The notes under the pieces were generated by a model. The model searched no databases. It saw only the letters and a list, made by a program, of their open reading frames with translations, and was not told the DNA's origin. Below, piece by piece: positions 23,025 through 49,784 of a stretch of DNA of 62,000 nucleotides. This stretch comes from Bolinopsis microptera (Eukaryota; Ctenophora; Tentaculata; Lobata; Bolinopsidae). Every line of letters begins with the position of its first letter. Within the stretch, counting starts at the first letter, position 1. Both the position numbers and the translations under genes were made by a program. The stretch spans positions 1,259,375 to 1,321,374 of the forward strand of contig NC_087072.1 of NCBI RefSeq assembly GCF_026151205.1, read 5' to 3'.

Positions 23025-26000
23025 CTACTCTGTCTTTTCTTTGTCATCTAAGCAGTCCTTAGTAAGATCAGTCAAGGTGGTCGTTGCAATTCCATTATCA
23101 CGTGGGATATCATCCACATCTAGTTCAGTGGCACGTGTCATGAGTTCTTGTATATCCTTGTCTACTCCCATGCTGCTGTCATAATACATGTCCATCTCCC
23201 TCCTGAACAGCCTCAATACTAACAATCCTGGGGAAATGGGTTTTAATATGGTTAATTTCATAACATTTTCAATATTAATTATTACTCATATTCTGCAGAC
23301 TGCAGAGTACTTATAAAGTTATATAATATAAATTATCAGATTCATCTAAAGAGAAAGTCGACCTTCTAAGAACAGGTAACATAGAAAACACAGTATTTTG
23401 CCCACCAGCAACAAGAAAGAGGCCCACTATAGGATAGCTGATATTCTCTCTATCAAAACTAAAGTACTTCCTAGGACCCTTCTTGCGAGTTTCCTTAGTG
23501 GACTCATCTCTCTTCTTGGGTTCCTTCAGGAAACCGTTACTTTCCCTCCACTCTGGGTGAGAAGTTGTTAGTTAGTCAGTTAGTTAGTTTGTTAGATTGT
23601 TTGTTAGTTAGTTTATTAGTTTGTTTGTTAGTTTGTGGTGACTGACGCATACCATTTATTAAATTTAAATTAATAATAATACATTTTTTTTGTTACAATG
23701 AAAGGACAAAAACAGAACACGAGGATAATTAAGTGACTAAGATAAAATGTATTAGTCAAACAAGCAACTTTATTAATTAAAAACAAACACATATTTAAAA
23801 ATTCAATAATTCAAACAAGCAACTTTATTGATAAAAACACACCTTTAAAAATTTGATAATTCAAACAAGCAACTTTATCGATTAAAAACAAACGTACCTA
23901 TATTAAAAATTTTAATAATTCAAACAAGTAAATTTAATTGTTTATAAATGAAACTTTATAAGTTTAACAAGCAAATTCATTTAAATAATTGTACAAGTTA
24001 TGAAAATATATTAAAAAGATAGATATTAAAAAGTGAAAACACTTGATTAAAAACAATATATACATGATAGAGTCATTATAGCGTATAAATATACTATAGA
24101 ATATCGCTGTGAATTCTAGCAGGGAGGTGCAGTGAAGCATATACACGTGAGGCATTGACACGTGACTGCAATAAACCAATCAGCTTCTAAAAAATACGAC
24201 TCACCTCCCCACAAAAATCGACGTGTATCAAATCACAAACAATTCATCCAATATCACATCAAAACAGAGTCGAGCCAAAGACCTCCAAGGTAACTGACAA
24301 TTTTAGCTACATTCTTAAAACAAATAATTATAGGTTGCTGATCTAACTTGACCTTTATATCTCGCAAGCTGGAATCTTTGAAGTTATTGGCAATAATTAA
24401 AAAGAAGTCCCTTATCTCATAAAGCCACAGTTTAAGTAAAACAAAAACGTGTTGAACGTCTTTTTTAACGTCAGACAGATGAATTGGAGTTACATCCATT
24501 TTAGATGGGACACTTGGCAAACCTCCAACTTCTGAAAATTACAGTGTTACTGTATCCATGGTTACTGTATCCATCAACTAGAACACATATCTTGTTATGG
24601 ACAACAATATTCCGTGTTCTATACGAACAGTAACACTGTAATTTCCACGAGTCCATTATAAAGTGCTTACCTTTAAGTTGGGTTAGAGAGACAGGAGGCA
24701 TGTAGGGAATGTAGTGGGTGGGGGGACTGTAGGGGGGGGGGCTGTAGGGGGGGGGGGACTGTAGGGGGGGGGGGGGCTGTAGGGGGGGGGGGCTGTAGGG
24801 GGGGGGGACTGTAGGGGGGACTGTAGGGGGGGGGGGGACTGTAGGGGGGGGGGACTGTAGTGCTTACCTTTAAGTTGGGTTAGAGAGACAGGAGGCATGT
24901 AGGGAATGTAGTGGGTGGGGGGACTGTAGGGGGGGACTGTAGGGGGGGACTGTAGGGGGGGGGGGGGACTGTAGGGGGGGGGGACTGTAGGGTGGGGGGA
25001 CTGTAGGGGGGGGGACTGTAGGGAATGTAGTGGGTGGGGGGACTGTAGGGGGGGGACTGTAGGGGGGGGACTGTAGGGGGGGGGACTGTAGTGCTTACCT
25101 TTAAGTTGGGTTAGAGAGACAGGAGGCATGTAGGGAATGTAGTGGGGGGGGGGACTGTAGGGGGGGGGGGGGGACTGTAGTGCTTACCTTTAAGTTGGGT
25201 TAGAGAGACAGGAGGCATGTAGGGAATGTAGTGGGGGGGGACTGTAGGGGGGGGGGGGACTGTAGTGGGGGGGGGGGGGGACTGTAGGGGGGGGGGGTAC
25301 TGTAGTGCTTACCTTTAAGTTGGGTTAGAGAGACAGGAGGCATGTAGGGAATGTAGTGGGTGGGGGGACTGTAGGGGGGGGACTGTAGGGGGGGGGGACT
25401 GTAGTGCTTACCTTTAAGTTGGGTTAGAGAGACAGGAGGCATGTAGGGAATGTAGTGGGGGGGGGGGGGGGGGACTGTAGGGGGGGGGGACTGTAGTGCT
25501 TACCTTTAAGTTGGGTTAGAGAGACAGGAGGCATGTAGGGAATGTAGTGGGGGGGGACTGTAGGGGGGGGGGACTGTAGGGGGGGGGGGACTGTAGTGCT
25601 TACCTTTAAGTTGGGTTAGAGAGACAGGAGGCATGTAGGGAATGTAGTGGGTGGGGGGACTGTAGGGGGGGGGGGGGACTGTAGGGGGGGGGGGGACTGT
25701 AGGGGGGGGGGACTGTAGTGCTTACCTTTAAGTTGGGTTAGAGAGACAGGAGGCATGTAGGGAATGTAGTGGGGGGGGACTGTAGGGGGGGGGGGGACTG
25801 TAGTGTTTACCTTTAAGTTGGGTTAGAGAGACAGGAGGCATGTAGGGAATGTAGTGGGTGGGGGACTGTAGGGGGGGGGACTGTAGTGTTTACCTTTAAG
25901 TTGGGTTAGAGAGACAGGAGGCATGTAGGGAATGTAGTGGGGGGGGACTGTAGGGGGGGGGACTGTAGTGCTTACCTTTAAGTTGGGTTAGAGAGACAGG

Positions 26001-49388: not shown

Positions 49389-49784
49389 TCCTCTTAAAAG
49401 TTAAAATTATCTCAAAATTAAAGGTGTTTAATTTCTCAAGGGGTATAAAACAAATTTCAAGTCGTACGAGGTCAATGAGTAAGAAAATCCTCAATCAGAT
49501 GTGGAATTCAAATTGGCCAGCAGCCAAGTGACAGTTGGCCAGCAGCCAAGTGACAGTTCTCTGAATTAGCATATTTGTTCGACATCACGTGAACTAATAT
49601 TCGATAAGCAATGTGAACTATTCGCAAAATCTGTCTTTTTGTGTGTGTGTGTGTGTTTCACAAATCATAACACGGTAAATTCCCTGACAATCATTATAAT
49701 ATACACTGTACAATGCCAATATAAAACTCTTTGTAATATTATATATCGATAACATACACTCAAAACATTCAATTCATTGTTTCC

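Follow-up and report, generated by a model that had tools for sequence, protein, structure and literature searches.

Why should the introns of one gene fill with tandem copies of that gene's own splice sites, and does this placement reflect a preference of the duplication process, a function, or chance followed by tolerance? The question is raised by a gene lying within a 62,000-nucleotide stretch of Bolinopsis microptera DNA (the whole stretch that was analysed, hereafter the window; C1:1259375-1321374), which we examined together with the assembly it belongs to (264.65 Mb searched, 232 contigs). Positions given without a contig name are those of the window.

Gene model and window

The gene lies on the minus strand, as do all arrays listed for it below, and its exons 1 to 12, joined at canonical junctions, yield one open frame of 525 aa whose predicted product matches the Pfam families LMF1 (PF06762, E=1.1e-65) and LMF1_C (PF25179, E=6.9e-49). 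By these matches the gene is assigned to the LMF1/LMF2 family, of which it could be either member. The coding part of exon 1 (44147..44255) was delimited by its open reading frame and donor, and canonical junctions plus the joined frame placed exon 2 (43566..43674), exon 3 (42057..42160), exon 4 (41669..41785), exon 5 (40343..40503), exon 6 (39620..39727), exon 7 (39239..39355), exon 8 (33367..33532), exon 9 (33031..33184) and exon 10 (32775..32850). Exon 11 (31746..31963) ends in 61 nt that are at the same time copy 1 of a 65-bp array, and the final 37 nt of exon 12 (28603..28739) likewise lie inside an array. Three further exons, less certain than the first twelve, were placed between 24531 and 23025: a likely exon 13 (24353..24531, acceptor ttttcag, with its 3' end and its phase to exon 14 tentative), a likely exon 14 (23363..23552, read off the sequence) and a likely last exon (23025..23227, stop codon at 23025).

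Several other features of the region are recorded here in their own right. Intron 7 holds two tandem, similar, intronless reading frames on the plus strand, opposite to the host gene (35559-36722 and 37538-38701), each of 387 aa and equal at 362/388 positions when compared ungapped with the stop counted; their starts resemble signal peptides by eye, and a Pfam scan of the first frame (35559-36722) returned nothing above cut-off. The donor of exon 1 (44135-44146) is a perfect palindrome, GTAAGTACTTAC, which the duplicate described below has too, and similar words, GTACTTACC, occur at array donors in two other stretches (L032 and L037). Directly left of the window, 5000/10000 bases of C1:1249375-1259374 (L006) are N, possibly a gap.

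Arrays at the splice junctions of the gene

Tandem arrays make up 46% of the bases in the gene's 12 introns, and the largest are built, as a sequence-only reading of this DNA had claimed, from the gene's own exon edges with splice sites included, the ends of exons 11 and 12 each being present 31 times. In the exon-12 array (~24668..28640), for which about 30 copies had been proposed, the exon end, its donor and a G-run spacer recur at uneven spacings of 72-253 bp, and the GT is kept in 31/31 exon-end copies. The exon-11 array (29788..31806) repeats a 65-bp unit of exon end plus donor 31 times, much as first reported, with the GT intact in 27/31 copies. A third donor-copying array, absent from the earlier reading, joins two 47-bp copies and 28-bp partial copies of the exon 2 end and donor (43469..43599; 2-3 copies in all), such that the donors copied in tandem within this gene are those of exons 2, 11 and 12. 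On the acceptor side, the true exon 3 acceptor (42160) is doubled together with 9 coding nt (42152..42286); the 18 copies previously ascribed to it do exist, as a 55 bp x 18.5 array, but in an upstream partial duplicate. Separately, the exon-12 array region (24683-28828) is open over stretches of up to 188 aa counting exon 12, and its translation, should distal donors be used, would be a series of proline-rich repeats.

Other arrays lie against junctions. Those said to abut the acceptors of exons 5 and 11 and the donor of exon 6 do so at 25, 5 and 3 nt, respectively (8 bp x 65 at 40529..41050; 14 bp x 40.6 at 31969..32536; 27 bp x 3.1 at 39533..39614), and the roughly nine copies reported at the exon 2 acceptor region correspond to a 42 bp x 9.1 array (43681..44063) that stops 6 nt before the exon. 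To these we add a 16 bp x 2.9 array ending 1 nt short of exon 9 (33186..33231) and a short array ahead of the exon 14 acceptor (23563-23633), both new to this analysis. Upstream of exon 1 stand seven copies of a 65-bp unit bearing TCT or TGT directly before GTAAGT (44414..44886). One array is off-junction, a 24 bp x 21.8 repeat in the interior of intron 7 (33709..34236), 176 bp from exon 8.

With the arrays placed at random in the same 12 introns (score at least 60, period at least 4, the latter threshold dropping an AG run), 0.92 would be expected to come to 10 bp or less from a splice site; the observed number is 7/10, 4 at donors and 3 at acceptors, and 0/2000 simulations were as extreme. 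This P value is post hoc, the gene having been chosen for its striking look, such that the pattern is real here and its rarity elsewhere is not implied.

Copy-number turnover in an upstream partial duplicate

Exons 1 and 2 and the start of exon 3 have undergone a partial tandem duplication, which leaves duplicate A (42152-45186) and, upstream of it, duplicate B (46500-49687). Duplicate B holds the 55 bp x 18.5 array of the exon 3 acceptor plus 9 coding nt (46498..47520), open-frame copies of exons 1 and 2 (47577..48014), and 18 copies of 65/81-bp units (48137..49389) that are the counterpart of 44414-44886. These open exons could act as alternative first exons. Around exon 2, identity between A and B reaches 99.1% across 226 bp (47577-47802 against 43497-43722), and at exon 3 it is 98.5% across 135 bp; in longer alignment blocks, which take in arrays, gaps lower the figure to 89.8-94.3%. 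Copy numbers in A and B are 9 versus 1 for the 42-bp unit, 2 versus 18 for the 55-bp unit and 7 versus 18 for the 65-bp unit, and an (AG)449 run is present in A only. The same holds for two further paralog pairs, whose aligned parts are 97-99% identical and which have 28 versus 3 and 37 versus 26 copies. Array copy number here changes faster than single bases do.

Donor-crossing arrays in other genes

We sampled other DNA as 10 stretches chosen for myosin-head exons and 20 blind 10-kb stretches, 10 of them flanking the window. Tandem repeats covered a median of 6% of the 20 sampled 10-kb stretches; two of the blind samples were almost all array, C2:500001-510000 (L012) at ~99% and C5:500001-510000 (L015) at ~71%. 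Within the myosin stretches, arrays cross the donors of two Pfam-supported myosin-head exons (40 bp x 22.1 and 26 bp x 2.0) and of one predicted exon (31 bp x 4.1). An adenylate-kinase-like exon (ADK E=1.5e-5) has its donor crossed by a 75-bp unit repeated at least 14.5 times, the array running to the end of the stretch. When the introns inferred in myosin genes were taken by themselves (24/31, with 7 poor-scoring ones dropped), only 5 arrays were available, with a splice site no more than 10 bp away in 1 case (P 0.20) and no more than 20 bp away in 2 (P 0.05).

A genome-wide search for three spaced copies of AGGTAAGT extended these observations, the first seven arrays among the matches listed being five distinct loci after pairing of paralogs. 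Among those matches, one array repeats the end and donor of an ADAM exon 8.2 times (Disintegrin E=3.4e-6; Reprolysin E=0.0012), one locus crosses a donor with 37 copies (26 in its paralog), and two loci begin at, or ~12 nt past, a donor; these four are the loci of the five at which the donor-side flank was read. The exons at loci other than ADAM were judged from frame and splice signals alone, and in a Pfam scan the exons next to the L032, L034 and L037 arrays matched no family; the same was true of one short exon in L011.

Junction preference in the sampled DNA

Tests of whether junctions are preferred beyond this gene disagree with one another, and all must be read with the fact that most exons in the sample were predicted ab initio, with low sensitivity (3/12 LMF exons were recovered exactly at T=12). 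Compared with random positions, array ends showed no enrichment at ab initio exons (donor MWU P 0.62; acceptor 0.99), and scores of at least 12 were found at 6/130 array ends against 64/2544 random positions for donors and at 2/130 against 68/2544 for acceptors. Nor were junctions copied more often than their surroundings. Junction 16-mers recurred within 400 bp at 3/77 donors versus 24/427 intron positions 60-300 nt downstream (six per exon, mutually non-independent), as well as at 2/78 acceptors and 1/74 exon interiors; stricter exons gave 3/47 donors versus 15/255 intron positions, and random positions gave 947/7626 and 320/3954. The two acceptor cases (L019, L031) were not counted as real, their predicted exons lying almost wholly inside an array. 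Arrays crossing a donor by at least 8 nt numbered 3 against 1.94 expected (P 0.31), which together with the 16-mer counts speaks against the earlier assertion that ordinary intronic minisatellites would not pick junctions. Acceptor-crossing arrays numbered 0 against 2.07 expected at the 75 predicted exons outside this gene to which these edge-position tests refer.

The positions of array edges tell a different story. Array starts at -8..+10 nt of a donor were observed 6 times against 0.73 expected (0/1000 simulations), and edges 10-30 nt upstream of an acceptor 5 times against 0.80 (P 0.003), the latter figure falling to 2 versus 0.54 (P 0.088) with stricter exons. Large arrays alone gave 2 versus 0.39 for donor starts (P 0.047) and 2 versus 0.44 for acceptors (P 0.062). 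An earlier form of the test, using wider bins, gave 9 versus 2.78 at donor -80..+10 (0/400) and 6 versus 3.73 at acceptor -80..+30 (P 0.165), while a control on reversed sequence placed zero arrays in the donor bin, from 8 exons only. By the 16-mer repeat and edge-position tests, then, junction copying in the sample is at the neutral level and array edges hug splice signals. The preference over random placement proposed in the sequence-only reading stands in this sample of predicted exons as far as edges are concerned, and fails for the crossing of junctions.

A likely neutral origin

We consider it likely that the arrays are neutral, fast-turnover minisatellites of the mirage type (described below), formed in a repeat-rich genome and tolerated since one donor copy suffices. 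Tandem duplications would happen to take in an exon edge along with its splice site, perhaps by short microhomology-mediated duplication that copies exon end plus donor; the exon-11 unit spans from an exonic GTAA to the donor GTAA, as expected from duplication of this kind. Once formed, arrays would expand and contract fast via slippage or unequal exchange. The gene would survive because the exon-adjacent copy still supplies the correct donor, with the remaining copies drifting as intron. None of the unit lengths 65, 47, 44, 40, 32, 31 and 26 bp is divisible by three, such that a frameshift would follow if one or two copies were included, and from these lengths it is the exon-proximal donor that the gene probably uses. 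A copy reaching across an acceptor would be prone to splicing at the wrong AG, and selection would remove it. A copied acceptor lying upstream offers an AG that comes first, in keeping with the count of zero for acceptor-crossing arrays among the predicted exons, and a filter of this kind would leave donor-crossing arrays, few acceptor-crossing ones and edges that stop at splice signals.

Neutral mirages are favoured by their likeness to those of amphioxus, the turnover between duplicates, the recurrence in other genes, the copying of junctions at the level of intron positions and the commonness of tandem repeats. Two observations count against this account. The pile-up of edges at splice signals (6 versus 0.73 at donors and 5 versus 0.80 at acceptors elsewhere, 7 versus 0.92 in this gene) is not what neutral placement predicts, and is the point worth further work; and the 75-bp unit of the adenylate-kinase-like exon is a multiple of three, whose inclusion need not shift the frame.

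Alternative explanations

The pile-up is where a second explanation gains its footing, namely that 5' splice sites seed arrays, with GTAAG-type words, exon-internal look-alikes or transcription-linked damage acting as duplication hotspots. We hold this to be rather unlikely. Besides the surplus, beyond the LMF gene, of arrays that begin at predicted donors, 4/4 loci with the donor-side flank read, among the AGGTAAGT matches listed, abut an exon donor by eye, with Pfam backing ADAM only. Genome-wide, the pattern of three AGGTAAGT words matched 1206 times (450+756) against 11 (11+0) for the backwards pattern, in counts where overlapping triplets give long arrays the most weight. That apparent 100-fold donor excess, taken from the backwards control alone, was largely removed by a shuffled control: a dinucleotide-preserving shuffle, AAGTAGGT x3, itself matched 545 times (228+317) against 0+0 backwards, so that most of the excess reflects word composition and the donor word exceeds its shuffle about twofold by matches. 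Within 112 array units, this gene's included, TAAGT (26 versus 11.9) and GTGAG (17 versus 7.0) are over-represented, but GTAAG ranks only 28/512 among 5-mers, and the acceptor words TTCAG (11 versus 12.6) and TGCAG (4 versus 9.0) show no enrichment. Seeding is further opposed by junction 16-mers that recur no more than intron positions do and by array ends that are not enriched over random positions. R-loops at donors, put forward as one route to seeding, fare poorly at exon 12, where, read off the sequence, the G-rich strand of the array serves as template, an orientation unfavourable to R-loop formation. Were seeding nonetheless correct, 5' splice sites would be preferred birthplaces of arrays genome-wide in this ctenophore, many genes would carry a standing pool of duplicated donors that feeds intron change, and the pile-up would trace seeding rather than selection alone, a set of consequences that we rate as doubtful.

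An assembly artefact is very improbable. Some arrays are near-identical throughout (L030, 40 bp x22.1, 100%); however, the exon 11 and 12 array copies carry point differences, the duplicates differ in copy number and the contigs are chromosome-size.

We give still less credence to selection keeping the arrays as splicing or U1-binding elements, that is, as the telescripting platforms suggested earlier. The GT retained in every exon-12 copy and in most exon-11 copies is what such selection would produce, but young homogeneous arrays retain GT without it, and copy number changes strongly between near-identical duplicates. Donor-like words also run antisense in several arrays, as GTAAG words do in the 14-bp and 42-bp arrays of this gene (read off the sequence) and AGGTAAGT does at 3/4 of the flank-read loci, and intron 7, at 5.7 kb the longest, carries no array at its donor.

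Least probable of all are introner-like mobile elements, for although the units bear splice signals as such elements do, they consist of host exon sequence that differs among the genes seen, and the exon-11 array DNA, rather than being dispersed at many loci, matched one place in the genome in a search from which simple repeats and very common words are excluded.

Comparison with known systems

Neutral, mirage-type minisatellites remain our preferred reading, and they have relatives elsewhere. The human IFI6 gene (6-16/G1P3) reportedly contains a minisatellite that supplies multiple splice donor sites, a short-unit array in one gene; the arrays described here share with it a run of splice donors inside a gene and differ in that their units hold ~30-60 nt of exon. 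In amphioxus, the mirages of Adh3 are said to show somatic instability.

The sequence-only reading knew of no described system like this one, a view that the amphioxus mirages overturn. Tandem duplications resembling minisatellites are reported there across exon-intron boundaries, both 5' and 3', in Adh3 and the globins BflGb6 and BflGb9, with AG/GT in many copies, regular splicing undisturbed, haplotypes that differ in copy number and a proposed model of intron gain (PMC3087553). Set against that description, the window shows the structural features of mirages, a kind thus already described in amphioxus: the unit spans the host's exon-intron boundary (donors of exons 2, 11 and 12; exon 3 acceptor x2), many copies keep their splice signals (GT in 27/31 and 31/31) and copy number is unstable, here between near-identical duplicates and in amphioxus between haplotypes (PMC3087553). 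What differs is the host, a ctenophore, the copying of three donors within a single gene, with 31 copies for two of these, and the evidence, which is DNA. Our literature search found no report of mirages in ctenophores, a weak negative given that subscription papers fall mostly outside its coverage. Potato RdRp offers a further likeness in a duplication across an exon-intron boundary, which there produced a new intron, whereas here long arrays lie inside existing introns (PMC4974935).

These comparisons would extend mirages from amphioxus to a comb jelly, in which several junctions of one gene and unrelated genes besides are affected. The set is a tractable one in which to ask how splicing chooses one donor among up to 31 near-identical ones, why copied donors exceed copied acceptors and whether duplications of this type contribute to the gain of introns.
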